Shown in pieces: positions 2-14,556 of a DNA stretch of 64,000 nucleotides. The first letter of the stretch is position 1; each line of letters opens with the position of its first letter. The translations under genes and the position numbers were made by a program. The DNA is from Methanosarcina horonobensis HB-1 = JCM 15518 (GTDB lineage Archaea; Halobacteriota; Methanosarcinia; Methanosarcinales; Methanosarcinaceae), in contig NZ_CP009516.1 in NCBI RefSeq assembly GCF_000970285.1, positions 4,133,036 through 4,197,035 of the forward strand. Reading direction: 5' to 3'. The notes under the pieces were generated by a model. That model saw only the letters and a program-made list of their open reading frames with translations, did not search any database and was not told where the DNA came from.

Positions 2-1438
2 GGGCATGAACTTTCCATGAGTCTTGGGGCTTACGAAAGGGCTGTGACAGCTCTCCTGAACGCCGAACTGATCCCGGTAAGCAAGCAGTTTATCAAATCC
101 GTCCAGGCAGTAATGGAAGAAAAGGAAATAAAAGCAACCCTGATGATGATGAAGTGCGACGGATCTCTTGTTCGCATAGAAGAGGCCCTGCAAAAACCCG
201 TAGAATCAATCTTTTCCGGACCTGCAGCAAGCCTTGTGGGGGCTGCACATCTTACCGGGCTTGACACCTGTGCAACCGTGGATGTAGGAGGCACAAGTAC
301 CGATATTGCCATGGTTTCCGGAGGTGTTCCGGAGATAAGTGATTCCGGAGCAAGAGTGGGGGGCTGGAAAACAATGGTAAAAGCGATCAGGATGGAGACT
401 TCAGCCCTCGGTGGAGACAGCCTGGTCTGGATCAGAAGAAAGCCATTTCTGGGTCCGGCAAGAGTGATTCCCCTCTGCCTTGCAGCCTCAGAGTTTCCGG
501 GACTTTTAAAGAAACTGGAGAAAAGTGATCTTCCTAACGAACGTATAATGGACGAGATCATACAGCCAACTTCTTTTTTTGTAAGGAACGGAGGAGATTC
601 TTTCGAACTTCTCAGCGGTGATCTCGAAGAAGATGAGAAGATGATTCTTGAATGTCTGGGAACTGAGCCTCTTTCAATATCCGAGCTCTCTGAAAAGACA
701 GGCAAACACCCGCTACTGTTTGCAGGAAATCTGAAAGACCTCATCAGGAAAAGGCATGTAAGCCAGATAGGGTTTACCCCAACCGATGCCCTTCACGTGC
801 TTGGAGAATATGTAAGATGGGACGGAAGAGCTTCCTTTACAGGAGCAAAAATCCTTGGAAAAACCCTCAAACAGGGAGCAGAGGATTTTTCAGCCAGGAT
901 TAAAGCTGAAGTCGTAAGAAAACTTACTCTTGAACTGATTTCTTTCTTTGCGGAAGACCTGAAAAAAGAGGACATTGAAAAGCTTCTGGCAAAAGAAAAT
1001 GTCCTGAGATTCCACGTAAATGTCCCTGTAGTGCTGGTAGGCGCACCTGTAAGGGCATATCTGAAAGAACTGAACAGGGCTGTGGACGCAGACATAAGGA
1101 TTCCTGCTTTCCACGAGGTAGGAAATGCAGTGGGTGCCCTTGCAGGAAAAGTTGTCCACAGGACAGAGATCCTTATCCGCCCTTCAGCAGCAGGGAACGC
1201 AGAATATTCCGTATTCTCAAGGCTTGGAAAAGAAGTTTTTGAGGATTACGGAGAAGCTCTGGACTACGGGCTTAAGCTGAGCCACAGGTTGATTTCGGAG
1301 TACATGGACGGATACGGGCTTGAAATGGACAATGTGAAATTTGACCTTAAACAGAACGATGTGGGAAGCAGAGGAAAAGCCCCTCTGGAAACCCGCCTGA
1401 TCGGAGTCGGAATAGGGACGACCGGGAAACTGGCGTAA
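2..1438 (+). CDS. Hydantoinase/oxoprolinase family protein (HyuA-like), 5' end outside window
   Basis: The reading frame is open from the first complete codon at position 2 (GHELS...) and runs to TAA, so the gene begins upstream of the window and about 478 C-terminal residues are seen. The ATG at 17 is internal. The family (N-methylhydantoinase A/5-oxoprolinase A) has an ASKHA ATPase fold and usually about 650 residues. The phosphate-binding motif VDVGGTSTDIAMVSGG and the upstream FSGPAASLVGA are clear. Methanogen members often lie near methyltransferase genes and their activases, as here, but the substrate cannot be told. The chaperonin gene follows 95 bp downstream on the same strand. Family assignment is firm; the reaction is unknown. 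Confidence 0.85.
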   Translation, partial: GHELSMSLGAYERAVTALLNAELIPVSKQFIKSVQAVMEEKEIKATLMMMKCDGSLVRIEEALQKPVESIFSGPAASLVGAAHLTGLDTCATVDVGGTSTDIAMVSGGVPEISDSGARVGGWKTMVKAIRMETSALGGDSLVWIRRKPFLGPARVIPLCLAASEFPGLLKKLEKSDLPNERIMDEIIQPTSFFVRNGGDSFELLSGDLEEDEKMILECLGTEPLSISELSEKTGKHPLLFAGNLKDLIRKRHVSQIGFTPTDALHVLGEYVRWDGRASFTGAKILGKTLKQGAEDFSARIKAEVVRKLTLELISFFAEDLKKEDIEKLLAKENVLRFHVNVPVVLVGAPVRAYLKELNRAVDADIRIPAFHEVGNAVGALAGKVVHRTEILIRPSAAGNAEYSVFSRLGKEVFEDYGEALDYGLKLSHRLISEYMDGYGLEMDNVKFDLKQNDVGSRGKAPLETRLIGVGIGTTGKLA

Positions 1439-1532: not shown

Positions 1533-3140
1533 ATGGCAAGCGAATTAAAAGTACCGGGCAGCACGAGCCTTGAAAGCCAGGACGGAATGGCAAAACTGGC
1601 ACGGACAATAAGAGACAAGATTCTCATTGATGAGCCGGTAAAAGAAGAAGGGCTGATCGACCAGCTTGAAAGGGCATCCATAGAGATTGACGAGCTGCTT
1701 GGCTCATCCCTGGGACCGAAAGGGATGAACAAGATAATAGTAAACCCGGTGGGGGATATTTTCGTTACGAGCGACGGCAAAGTCATCTTAAAAGAAATGG
1801 ATGTGCTTCACCCGCTCGTGACTTCCCTTAAAAAGCTTGCCGAATCAATGGACAAAGCATGCGGGGATGGAACAAAAACTGCCGTGATTTTTGCAAGCAA
1901 TCTCATAAAAAACGCTGTCAAACTGATAAGGGCAGGAGTGCATCCGACAATCGTTATCGAAGGATACGAACTTGCCATGCAAAAAGCCTACGAGATGTTG
2001 CAGTACAGCATAAAGCAGGCATCTGAAGAGGATGTACGCACTACTATAATGTGCTCTGCAACAGGAAAGGGGATTGAAAGGAATCAGGCAGAAGCCGTAA
2101 CTGATATTGTCCTGAAAGTTATCAACCACCTCAACGAAAAACAGGCCGGAAGGCTCGACCTGAACAGGAACATCAAAGTCCTCAAAAAGAAAGGCGGACC
2201 TGAAATCGTTGCAGTGGAAGGCCTGATTATGGATGAAAATCCTGCAAGGGTTGACATGCCAGCCGAATTTGAAAACCCTAAGGTTTTGATTACGAACTAT
2301 GACCTCAAGATTAAAAGCGGATACTTAAACCCACAGCATAACCTCAAAATGGACTCCGTGAAGACTGCACTCCTTTTTGAAGAAAAGAAAAAGCAGATGT
2401 GTGCGAAAATTGCCAGAAAAATAATTGATTCGGGAGCAAATGTGCTCTTTTCCGAGGGAGATATTGATCCCTATATTGAAACTCTGCTGAGGGACAATAA
2501 TATTCTGGCTTTCAAGAAGCTGAAAACGAAAGACCTCGAAAAGCTTGCGGAAGCAACAGACACTACACTGATGAGCCCGAAAGATGAGATTCACCCCTGC
2601 GATCTCGGAAAAGCAGACAGCATAAGAGTAGAAAAGAAAAACGGAGAAAATTTTGTTTTCGTTACCGTGAAAGAAAAGGCAATAGCTACTATCCTGATCT
2701 GGGAACCTGTGAAATATGGGCTTGATAAGGTCGAAGAGGCTGTTGACGATGCACTCAATAATGCGGCTTTCCTCCTGAAAAACAGAGGAATAGTAAACGG
2801 GGGAGGGGCAATTGAGTTTGAACTTGCGCATATGGTAAGGCTCTTTGCATCGACACAGACAGGAAAAAGACAGATGGCAGTTCAGGCGTATGCAGAGGCT
2901 CTCGAAAAAATCCCAACTATTCTTGCAAGAAATATGGGGATGAACTCGATTGATGCAATGGCGCAGATGAGAAACTCATATGCAAAAGGGGTAGAGGCAA
3001 GGATAGACCTTTCAGGAAAGGTAACGGACAAAGGAAAGAAAGTTTACGATTCGGCAACAGTAAAAACGCTGGCAATTATCGCAGGAACTGAGACGGCAAG
3101 GAATGTGTTAAGGATAGATGAAATTGTTCCAAAGAAGTAA
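1533..3140 (+). CDS. Divergent group II chaperonin (thermosome/Hsp60-like subunit)
   Basis: The 535-residue protein keeps the group II chaperonin layout: equatorial, intermediate, apical, intermediate, equatorial. Visible motifs are SSLGPKGMNKI near residue 63, TSDGKVILKEMD, GDGTKTAV, SATGKGIE and NGGGAIEFELA near the end. Family consensus is TSLGPKGMDKM and GDGTTTAV, so two nucleotide-site positions are changed (D to N, T to K). The usual Gly/Met-rich C-terminal tail is absent; the protein ends DEIVPKK. Methanosarcina species are known to carry divergent extra chaperonin subunits besides the main thermosome, and this looks like one. GAGG lies just before the ATG. Whether it still hydrolyses ATP or joins mixed rings is open. 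Confidence 0.88.
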   Translation: MASELKVPGSTSLESQDGMAKLARTIRDKILIDEPVKEEGLIDQLERASIEIDELLGSSLGPKGMNKIIVNPVGDIFVTSDGKVILKEMDVLHPLVTSLKKLAESMDKACGDGTKTAVIFASNLIKNAVKLIRAGVHPTIVIEGYELAMQKAYEMLQYSIKQASEEDVRTTIMCSATGKGIERNQAEAVTDIVLKVINHLNEKQAGRLDLNRNIKVLKKKGGPEIVAVEGLIMDENPARVDMPAEFENPKVLITNYDLKIKSGYLNPQHNLKMDSVKTALLFEEKKKQMCAKIARKIIDSGANVLFSEGDIDPYIETLLRDNNILAFKKLKTKDLEKLAEATDTTLMSPKDEIHPCDLGKADSIRVEKKNGENFVFVTVKEKAIATILIWEPVKYGLDKVEEAVDDALNNAAFLLKNRGIVNGGGAIEFELAHMVRLFASTQTGKRQMAVQAYAEALEKIPTILARNMGMNSIDAMAQMRNSYAKGVEARIDLSGKVTDKGKKVYDSATVKTLAIIAGTETARNVLRIDEIVPKK

Positions 3141-3600: not shown

Positions 3601-3681
3601 TGATTCTGCGCGTAATAGTTCTCAGGAGAAAAAAGCTGTAAAGACTTCACTTAATAAAAAGAATGTTAATGGCAGATTTTA

Positions 3682-4752
3682 ATGGCAGATCGAGACCTAA
3701 GAGACTGTTTCCTGAATACACTGCATGGAAAAGCTGTGGATAAGGTGCCTGTTCTTTCTGTGACCCAGACAGGGACCGTTGAACTGATGAAAAAGAGCGG
3801 AGCAGCCTGGCCAGAAGCTCATTTTGACGCTGAAAAAATGGCAGACCTCGCCCTTTCAGCTCATACTATAGCAGGCCTTGAAGCCGTTCGCTACCCTTTC
3901 TGTCTCACTGTCCTATCTGAAGCTTTGGGCTGCAGGGTTAACCCGGGCAGATAGGATATTCAGCCGTCACCAGGGTCCAACCCTTTTGCAGAGAGAACGG
4001 AAGAGCTCGAACTTCCCCAGGATTTTGCGGAGAGAGGAAGGGTTCCTCTTATTGCTGATGTGACCTCCATCCTTAGGGAAAAGGCAGGCGAAGAAGTCCC
4101 CCTTATAGCAGGTATGGAGGGCCCGGCATCTCTTGCTTCAAGGTTGCTTGGTACTTACAATTTTCTTACCTGGATAATCAGAAGGCCCGAGACCGTAAGG
4201 GAATGCCTCAAAGTTACAGGGTCGATCTGTTCCGAATATGCAGGAATCCTGTCCGATGCCGGGGCAGATGCGGTCTGCATTGTAGACGGAATAGCAGGAC
4301 CGGATATGCTTGACCCCAGACAATTTGACTCCCTCATAAAACCAAAGTACGAAAGGTTCTGCAGGTCAGGAAAAGGAATAAAGCTAATACATGTCTGCGG
4401 AAACTCAACTCCTATCCTTGAAATTCTTTCGAAATGCGGTTTTCAGGGGATCAGTATCGAAGAAAAGGTAACTGACCTGCGGGCTGCAAAAAAGCTTGTC
4501 GGAAGAAAAACAAGCTTAATAGGAAACCTTTCCTCTTCAGGAATCATTCTCAACGGGACCTGTGAAGAGATAAAAGAAGAAGCGCAGAAGTGCCTTAGAG
4601 ATGGAATCGATATACTTGCTCCGGGGTGCGGAATTGCGCCGAAGACCCCTACAAGAAACATAAAGGCCCTTGTTGAAGCGAGAGATGAGTATTATCACCT
4701 GAATTACGCCTCTGGAGGACACGGTCCTTTTCGCTTTGCTCAAGAAGACTAA
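3682..4752 (+). CDS. MtaA/MtbA-like methylcobamide:CoM methyltransferase with in-frame UAG (probable pyrrolysine at residue 91)
   Basis: Two open segments in the same frame, 3682-3951 and 3955-4752, are separated only by TAG at 3952-3954. Read through, they give one 356-residue UroD-fold protein of normal family length (about 340). The N-part has VDKVPVLSVTQTGTVELM and the C-part has GMEGPASLASRLL, the zinc ligands of LIHVCGN (H237, C239) and PGCGIAP (C316). All are typical of MtaA/MtbA, which move the methyl group from methyl-corrinoid protein to coenzyme M. The UAG sits in VNPGR-X-DIQPSP, aligning by memory with MGTKNRQPSV of MtaA, where X falls on or next to a lysine. In Methanosarcina UAG is decoded as pyrrolysine, so readthrough is plausible. 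A recent nonsense mutation is the alternative. Confidence 0.8.
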
Positions 4753-9070: not shown

Positions 9071-9649
9071 TATAGGATAGCGTTTGCCGACATTAAATAA
9101 ATAGATTACGAAAAAACCAATGAGGATCACGCAGTTAAAAAACAAATGCATATTATGAAAGAAATTACAAGGCCAACAATATAAGTTTAATTTCTTTGGT
9201 TTTATGAAAGTCATTTGTTAAATCAGCCATTATTAAACAACATATAAGAATACGGCACTTATTGTTTCTGTCATATCTTTACATCCAGTAAATTTTCAAG
9301 AAATATGACATTTTTCACGATGCTTGGCTCCCTCAATATTATCATAGCTTCTGTAAAATCGATACCCCTCAAAAATCAATGCCCCCTCAAAAATCAATGC
9401 CTTCACTCAAATCAGGACCCTTTACGATAAGCTGCGAATTATGTTATATAGATTTAAGCCTAAAATTTAGTTAAAAAAGACTGAAAAACAGTGAAGAGCT
9501 GCGCAGCCTATTTCACTGCCTGAAGTTAACCCGGTATACGTATCCTGAGTATACAGTATCCTGATGTGGACAGGATAGAAAGGATATGAAAGGATATGAA
9601 AGGATATTTTTTTCTTAATTTCAACGACTGCTGCAAGTGGAGTATAAAA
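9071..9649. other. Divergent intergenic region with short tandem duplications
   Basis: This holds the promoter of the riboswitch/crcB unit (leftward) and the leader of the RamA-like gene (rightward). An 18-bp unit CCCCTCAAAAATCAATGC is repeated head to tail at 9365-9382 and 9383-9400. GGATATGAAA is repeated near 9580-9606, just before the RamA-like start, and makes spurious upstream ATGs. A possible TATA (TTATATAG) lies near 9443. Confidence 0.55.
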
Positions 9650-11329
9650 ATGTACGGGATTGCACTTGACCTGGGTACCAGCGGCTTTAGAGCGCAGCTT
9701 ATAGACCTGGAAACAAAAAAAGTTGTAAAAACTGCCATGACGATGAGGCACCCCCTGCCAGGGGGCAACGTGATCGACCACCTGGACTTCGCACTGGAAG
9801 TAGGAGAAGATATTGCAAACAACATCATACTGGATGCGGTATGTAAGATTATTGAAACCTTCGAGATTGATCCTGCCTGCATCCGGAAACTGGTCGTATG
9901 CGGAAACCCTATCCAGCTTTCGCTCTTCCAGAACTCGGAGATAAGAGACCTTGCTTTTGCCGGAAAGAATATGCAGAGAAGGCTTGGAGTCGAGAATGTG
10001 GATAGGAGTGCAAGAGTATTTCCGGCATCCGAACTTTTCAGGGGAGTCCTGGATCTGCCGAACTGCGAAATAACCGTGCCTCCGGCTATCGCCCATGAGA
10101 TCGGAGCCGATGCCCTGGCGATGATGATCGAAACTGATTTCCTGAACCAGAAAGAAGTCTCCATTGTCACTGATTACGGTACTAACGCGGAAATGGCGAT
10201 AAAAGCAGGAGACAGGATTATCACGGGCAGTGCTGCTGCAGGACCTGCAATAGAGGGGCAGGGTATAAGCTGCGGAATGATTGCAAGCCCGGGCGCGATT
10301 TCAGATGTAAACATTGAAAAGGATAGTAATGGAAATGACTGCTGGCGGCTTACAGTCCTGAATGAAAAGATGGAAGGAAGACCCGGAGATCTGATAAAAC
10401 CCATTAACGGCGAAACTGTAGAAAAAGGAGAAATAGAGGCAGTGGGAATTACCGGAACCGGAGTGATTGCAGTTATTGCTCTTGCAATGGAGACAGGGCT
10501 TATGCAACAGCCTCCGAAACTGCCCAACGGGAGGCTGATCCTTGGCAGCGGGATAGAGATTACAGACGGGGATATTGCCGAAGCCGGAAAAGCTATAGGA
10601 GCAATCAGGGCAGCTCAGCTTACACTCCTGCTTGAAGCGGGAGTCCCTTTCGAAGAACTCGAAAATGTTTACATGTCAGGAGCTTCAGGGACGTATGTTG
10701 ACTGCAGAAAGGCCAGAAAAATAGGTTCCTGCCCTGATTTTTCAAAGAAGGCTGTCCAGTTTGGAAACACTTCCATCGCTCTTGCACGCGAACTTATTCT
10801 GGACCCATCCAGGCTTGAGGAAATAATCGCTCTTGCAGGTACTATAAAAGCAGACCACCTGATGATGGCTACTAGCGAGACCTTCAAGAACATTTACACA
10901 TGTGAGCTTTCTTACTGGACAGAAGGTATGAGTATGAAGCTCTACAAGAAGTTTTTCAAAATGTATAAGTACCCTTCTCTCCCGGAACCCGTAGAGAATG
11001 CAGTAATGGAAAAAAGAGCTGCCAGAGATATCGAGGAAACAGGAAACGTTCCTGTAGAAATTGTGGAAGATGTCGGGATCACCATAGAGGTCCCTCTGGA
11101 AAGCTGCCTCCAGTGCCAGCGCTGCAATGAAGAATGCCCGGAAAATGCACTTGTGACCATTGAGAAAAACGGAAGCTACTTTGCAAGCTGCAGGACTCAG
11201 GACTGCCTCGGGACAAGTTGCAGACGCTGTGTCCGTGCGTGCCCGATAAAAGCAATAGACTTCAAAAACATTGCTACTCTTGGTGTAAACGGACTTCAGA
11301 GAAGTGGGATAACCGGCGGGGTTTACTGA
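9650..11329 (+). CDS. RamA-like ATP-dependent reductive activase of corrinoid methyltransferase proteins
   Basis: I start at ATG 9650 (MYGIALDLGTSGFRAQL), because the 18 residues encoded upstream do not fit the family; this gives 559 residues. An ASKHA-type ATPase (GIALDLGTSG at the N-terminus, TDYGTNAEMAIKAG, then GSGIEITDGD and YMSGASGTYVD) is followed by a C-terminal two-cluster ferredoxin. Its cysteine motifs are CLQCQRCNEECP and CLGTSCRRCVRACP. RamA and relatives use ATP and low-potential electrons to reduce Co(II) corrinoid proteins to active Co(I) in methylamine, methanol and methylsulfide metabolism. No corrinoid protein gene is adjacent, so the target is unknown. A Cys-rich small protein follows. 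Confidence 0.9.
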   Translation: MYGIALDLGTSGFRAQLIDLETKKVVKTAMTMRHPLPGGNVIDHLDFALEVGEDIANNIILDAVCKIIETFEIDPACIRKLVVCGNPIQLSLFQNSEIRDLAFAGKNMQRRLGVENVDRSARVFPASELFRGVLDLPNCEITVPPAIAHEIGADALAMMIETDFLNQKEVSIVTDYGTNAEMAIKAGDRIITGSAAAGPAIEGQGISCGMIASPGAISDVNIEKDSNGNDCWRLTVLNEKMEGRPGDLIKPINGETVEKGEIEAVGITGTGVIAVIALAMETGLMQQPPKLPNGRLILGSGIEITDGDIAEAGKAIGAIRAAQLTLLLEAGVPFEELENVYMSGASGTYVDCRKARKIGSCPDFSKKAVQFGNTSIALARELILDPSRLEEIIALAGTIKADHLMMATSETFKNIYTCELSYWTEGMSMKLYKKFFKMYKYPSLPEPVENAVMEKRAARDIEETGNVPVEIVEDVGITIEVPLESCLQCQRCNEECPENALVTIEKNGSYFASCRTQDCLGTSCRRCVRACPIKAIDFKNIATLGVNGLQRSGITGGVY

Positions 11330-13479: not shown

Positions 13480-14556
13480 TCATTCATATCTGCCGTATTT
13501 TTCTGCTGCATCCATCATTGCCATCACCTTTATAGGCGCTGCATTGACAGGGAATTCGCAGCCCGGAGAAAGAACAAATCCATATGGAGAATTGATCCCT
13601 TCTTCAATATTCTGCCTGCAGATTTCCACAACTTCTTCGTATGAACTGGTAAGGAAGAGCGGAGGGTTGATATTTCCACATATAACGTCGTGGTCACCAA
13701 ACATTTTGATCTGATCTTTGATAGGTGTTTCCGGCCCGAAGAGCCAGAAATACTTTCCTGACCAGTTCAATTCTTCTCTTAACCTTGCATAGTATGGTAG
13801 GTTCAGATTCTGATCAGCACAGGGGTGCATGAGCAGGGCACCTATCCCCAGTTCCTTTGCATGGACATGAACCTTTTTCATGTACGGGTATGCAAACTCC
13901 TCAAACATCTGCGGAGGAATCATGTTGTTCGATTCTGATGGTCCTCCATCAAAAGGCAACAGGCTTTCTGAACCGTATTTATCTACAAAATAATCCAGAG
14001 CGTTGATAAACATATCACTTACCTTGTCAAGTAAGAAGTGGACAGCTTTTGGATCCATAATAAGCCATGTTAAAAACTCAGAAGTATCCGCAACGACCGA
14101 AGCTGCAGTAAAATTGCTGCCTATCTGTACAGTTACCGGCATCCCAAGTTCAAAGCATCTGGTTGCAACTCTATCTGCAATTTTATACGCACCGGGCAAT
14201 TCTTTTTCAAAATCGGGGACTTCAAGCTTTTCAATATCTTCTATGGTATTCACAGGATGCTTTTTCACAAAAGGTGCACCCTGTCCCTTTCCGTAAGGAA
14301 AGCCGATCTCTCCTCCAAATTCCCATGCTCCGCACGATGCATACCCGTACATTGGAGTCTGTTCATAACCGTGAAGCCGCATGGACGCAAACTGCGCTTC
14401 AAAACATTTGTCCCCGTCCGCATAAAAATCTCCAAGAGATATACCCGTAATTTTTGCAGAATACCCCTCTATAAACGGGATTACCGGTATACGATCAGGC
14501 TTTTGCCCTGACATAAGAGCTGCCATACGCTCTGATGATGTCATTCTGGCTACCAT
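13480..14556 (-). CDS. UroD-fold corrinoid methyltransferase homologue (MtbA/CmuA-like)
   Basis: A 358-residue protein of the uroporphyrinogen decarboxylase/methyltransferase superfamily. It starts with TSSERMAALMSGQKPDRIPV, a usual family opening. Likely zinc ligands are LLMHPCADQ (H-x-C) and LSPGCEFP (C), the same three-ligand pattern used by MtaA and MtbA to bind the CoM thiolate, which favours methyl transfer over heme synthesis. It is more distant from MtaA than the gene at 3.7 kb. It is not in an operon with a corrinoid protein. The substrate is unknown. Confidence 0.8.
   Translation of the reverse strand: MVARMTSSERMAALMSGQKPDRIPVIPFIEGYSAKITGISLGDFYADGDKCFEAQFASMRLHGYEQTPMYGYASCGAWEFGGEIGFPYGKGQGAPFVKKHPVNTIEDIEKLEVPDFEKELPGAYKIADRVATRCFELGMPVTVQIGSNFTAASVVADTSEFLTWLIMDPKAVHFLLDKVSDMFINALDYFVDKYGSESLLPFDGGPSESNNMIPPQMFEEFAYPYMKKVHVHAKELGIGALLMHPCADQNLNLPYYARLREELNWSGKYFWLFGPETPIKDQIKMFGDHDVICGNINPPLFLTSSYEEVVEICRQNIEEGINSPYGFVLSPGCEFPVNAAPIKVMAMMDAAEKYGRYE

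Follow-up and report, generated by a model that had tools for sequence, protein, structure and literature searches.

A conserved in-frame UAG, probably read as pyrrolysine, in an MtaA-family methyltransferase gene of Methanosarcina

In the methylamine methyltransferases MtmB, MtbB and MttB pyrrolysine is found in the active site, and the only other known pyrrolysine proteins named are transposases and Thg1 (PMC8211752). The annotation of M. acetivorans (Galagan et al. 2002), as described in PMC1914089, includes an amber-containing methylcobamide:CoM methylase. This methylase was missed by a 2007 conservation screen because it was present in just one species of the dataset (PMC1914089), and a 2005 screen predicted read-through of an M. 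acetivorans ORF with homology to the methylcobalamin:CoM methyltransferase of M. mazei (PMC1242214). Given that annotation and that prediction, the mtaA candidate described below was already known as a prediction, and the assumption of a sequence-only reading of this DNA that pyrrolysine in a CoM methyltransferase was unheard of does not hold. Experimental proof of pyrrolysine in the amber methylase was not found in the literature. What is new here is the cross-species conservation of amber mtaA, the evidence for selection on it and the history of its codon. Judging by its title, a 2009 study by Heinemann et al. reportedly concerns the tRNA-His guanylyltransferase Thg1 in a subset of Methanosarcinales and attributes its pyrrolysine to neutral evolution. 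Thg1 resembles the mtaA candidate in that its pyrrolysine lies outside the methylamine methyltransferases, although the protein is a different one.

The gene lies at 3682..4752 on the forward strand of the window, that is, of the whole 64,000-nucleotide stretch of DNA that was analysed, in a Methanosarcina genome assembled as a single contig of 5.02 Mb. As the sequence-only reading had proposed, it is a single frame of MtaA length (356 codons, from an ATG start to a TAA end) that is broken only by a TAG at codon 91 (3952..3954, forward strand). The read-through protein scores 503.9 bits over residues 5-338 against the NCBIfam equivalog MtaA_Meth (NF040654.1), for which the curated cut-off is 400 bits, and URO-D (PF01208) is matched on both sides of the TAG, by two parts of the protein that fall on colinear segments of the profile. 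The suggested comparison with MtaA gave a gap-free alignment of residues 4-338 (335 residues) to the M. mazei structure 4ay7, on which the fold assignment is based; AlphaFold2 with a seven-sequence alignment returned no usable model (mean pLDDT 34). The M. mazei enzyme shares family, zinc ligands and length with the TAG gene product, but its gene is without UAG and a Lys (in MGTKNRQPS) aligns with codon 91. The MtaA-type pattern of H-x-C followed by a later C is present after the TAG, as had been claimed, in His237 and Cys239 (4390..4398, forward strand) and Cys316 (4627..4629, forward strand), which are predicted zinc ligands and are invariant across seven aligned orthologues. Around the start codon, at 3669-3690, ATGGCAGAT is present in two copies spaced by about 13 bases and lying in different frames, a small duplication where translation begins.

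The machinery for decoding UAG is present in the host genome, which contains tRNA-Pyl (anticodon CTA), pylS, adjoining frames read by eye as pylB, pylC and pylD, and two mtmB genes with one TAG each. Both pylS and a TAG-containing mtmB were also found in M. acetivorans and in Methanosarcina sp. DH2; neither was found in the approximately 60% complete assembly of MAG UBA8098. Within the window, none of the 40 long ORFs picked as genes, a small sample, ends in TAG. A search for a PYLIS-like RNA element in the 120 nt after the TAG revealed no unusual structure (z-score 0.27). Such an element is not required after UAG, and pyrrolysine insertion is probably governed by competition with release factor (PMC8211752, PMC9499178).

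Conservation of the codon in other Methanosarcina, which the earlier reading had offered as a check, was followed in 31 genomes, the window genome counted among them. The 13 copies of the orthologue are 69-90% identical to the window gene and are separated by a clear gap from the paralogues, which reach at most about 56%. Codon 91 is TAG in four of them, from the window species, DH2, M. acetivorans C2A and UBA8098, and is otherwise TAT (UBA10923 and G018), TAC (G009 and strain 2.H.T.1A.6), TTG (two copies), CGC or CGT (two copies) or AAA (one copy). Among 186 genomes of the order searched, no more close copies with an internal TAG were found. TAA or TGA stops were reported for some orthologues and paralogues, and those examined proved to be ordinary gene ends. 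The M. acetivorans copy (G001:C1:1011089-1012105), which is 85% identical to the window gene and has TAG likewise at codon 91, is, of the M. acetivorans matches listed, the sole one interrupted by TAG, and is very probably the annotated amber methylase; a gene previously recorded in one species is therefore seen here in four. Position 91 has five states among the 13 orthologues (Tyr, Leu, Arg, Lys and, for TAG, putative Pyl), and only eight of 338 positions, itself included, have at least as many. It is flanked by R90 and D92, both invariant in the seven closest sequences. The best reading of this comparison is that position 91 is tolerant and non-catalytic, such that the identity of the residue would hardly matter.

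The chance that the TAG is a sequencing or assembly error is practically nil, given that the identical TAG in independent assemblies of four species rules out a sequencing error and nothing was found in favour of one. It is also quite improbable that the locus is a pseudogene or makes a truncated product of 90 residues. Termination at the UAG could still occur, and UAG-free MtaA paralogues, also present in the host genome, could supply the function, which means that the TAG gene is possibly dispensable. However, the part before the TAG is without any zinc ligand, and the frame after it is under purifying selection. For the four TAG genes, post-TAG dS is 0.52-0.81, dN is 0.046-0.089 and dN/dS is 0.087-0.124, and the bootstrap intervals for dN/dS fall below 0.2 in all four pairs tested, including the window gene with DH2 (0.087, 95% CI 0.049-0.140, at dS of about 0.52) and M. 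acetivorans with UBA8098 (0.104, 95% CI 0.062-0.163, also at about 0.52). TAG-free orthologue pairs give a dN/dS of about 0.10-0.18 by the same measure, and by this comparison selection is not weaker in the TAG genes. Up to residue 338 all four are free of additional stops and indels, which extends to four species what the sequence-only reading had noted for one; other inactivating lesions in orthologues, which that reading had set against its own claim together with a sequencing error, are absent from the TAG genes. When neutral decay was simulated with approximate branch lengths, all four frames remained stop-free in 0 of 2000 runs, with a mean of 5.9 extra stops per gene, and the TAG itself was retained in all four genes in just 3.6% of runs. 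Both a sequencing error and recent pseudogenisation can be set aside for the TAG gene.

The history of the codon was traced on a tree built with codon 91 removed. The TAT-bearing gene of UBA10923 groups with the window gene and is nested in the TAG clade, with the two nearest branches supported at 92.8/91 and 97.6/98, and an exclusive clade of TAG genes without UBA10923 is rejected (AU p = 0.022). This nesting suggests a reversal, and the shortest account of the tree would be one gain of TAG and one change from TAG back to TAT; parallel gains, recombination or an error in the MAG may also explain the nested gene. An origin of the TAG from a lysine codon, AAG to TAG, as had been put forward from the sequence, is rejected. 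At this codon the nearest orthologues encode Tyr (TAT/TAC) or Leu (TTG), the closest sense codons, which makes that route unlikely, and Lys is found at position 91 solely in one distant orthologue and in paralogues. Synonymous distance between the window gene and STD2/G007 is 0.40-0.43 before codon 91 (3682-3951) and 0.87-0.99 after it (3955-4695), and this halving upstream of the codon suggests past recombination within the gene.

The surroundings of the TAG genes agree wherever the contigs extend far enough. The window and DH2 share the order of a hydantoinase/oxoprolinase-like gene (17..1438, forward strand, with its start probably before the window), a divergent group II, thermosome-like chaperonin (1533..3140, forward strand), mtaA and a RamA-family corrinoid protein reductive activase (9596..11329, forward strand; TIGR04270, 737 bits). 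The first two genes are also upstream in M. acetivorans, and RamA is found at the UBA8098 locus. The 535-residue chaperonin scores 372 bits against an archaeal thermosome cut-off of 671 and is syntenic with mtaA in several species; it is perhaps a diverged chaperonin tied to the mtaA locus. In M. acetivorans, a frame assigned by eye as a CobW/COG0523-like GTPase (L049:8529-9632, reverse strand) separates the chaperonin from the TAG-containing mtaA, and is missing at the corresponding spot in the window. A second URO-D family methyltransferase-like gene (13480-14556, reverse strand), under all curated CoM-methyltransferase cut-offs, is located about 9 kb away from the TAG gene, close to a RamA-family activase.

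If the UAG is translated, the role of the inserted residue can be read in more than one way. MtmB, MtbB and MttB share with the TAG gene an in-frame UAG, the same organisms and the same pathway, and there the UAG is pyrrolysine; they belong to other protein families and have it in the active site, whereas the position in mtaA is variable. This common pathway and amino acid system would fit a catalytic or structural role, in which pyrrolysine acts in methyl transfer as it does in those enzymes. Such a role is highly improbable, since codon 91 of mtaA is among the more variable positions, with Tyr, Leu, Arg or Lys in orthologues, and the zinc ligands are elsewhere in the sequence. A conditional switch, by which full-length enzyme is made only when charged tRNA-Pyl is supplied, as in methylamine growth, and translation otherwise terminates, would make pyrrolysine regulatory rather than catalytic, and is compatible with read-through by pyrrolysine, which it extends. 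Retention of the TAG in four species across dS of 0.5-0.8 and the RamA-family activase downstream speak for a switch, as does Acetohalobium, where UAG decoding varies with carbon source according to a passage of PMC8211752 that cites Prat et al. 2012. We nonetheless regard it as unlikely; TAT in the nested orthologue and Tyr, Leu or Arg in other lineages indicate that a switch is not generally required. The related idea of a sensor-like CoM methyltransferase, with full-length synthesis tracking pyrrolysine supply, is similarly doubtful; if true, it would couple a methyl-transfer step to methylamine growth.

There is, in our view, a strong probability that the UAG at codon 91 is decoded as pyrrolysine, giving a full-length, working MtaA-family enzyme with pyrrolysine at a tolerant site. 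The sequence-only reading had already called the codon a probable pyrrolysine, and is borne out by the TAG in four species, the purifying selection after it and the complete pyl system; an in-frame UAG with conserved coding downstream, in a genome with tRNA-Pyl, PylRS and pyrrolysine biosynthesis, is what a pyrrolysine protein would present. The tRNA-Pyl and PylRS of the same cell would read the internal UAG, and read-through would yield a predicted methylcobamide:coenzyme M methyltransferase with pyrrolysine at a non-catalytic site, where other orthologues place Tyr, Leu, Arg or Lys. The most likely source of the TAG is a single base change in a Tyr or Leu codon, in a Methanosarcina where UAG was already being translated, and the codon would have been retained because it does little harm. 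We infer that the protein is made with pyrrolysine as the inserted residue, and that retention is neutral rather than regulatory. By analogy, the UAG of mtaA would very probably work like the read-through of MtmB, except that pyrrolysine would be a bystander, as is reportedly proposed for Thg1.

Very few pyrrolysine proteins have been confirmed besides the methylamine methyltransferases. With a TAG kept at dS of 0.5-0.8 in four species, a freely exchangeable site and an apparent reversal from TAG to TAT, the UAG at codon 91 offers a natural test case for UAG as a tolerated sense codon in Methanosarcina, and a test of whether pyrrolysine can be nearly neutral, in a gene that is carried by the genetically tractable M. 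acetivorans.
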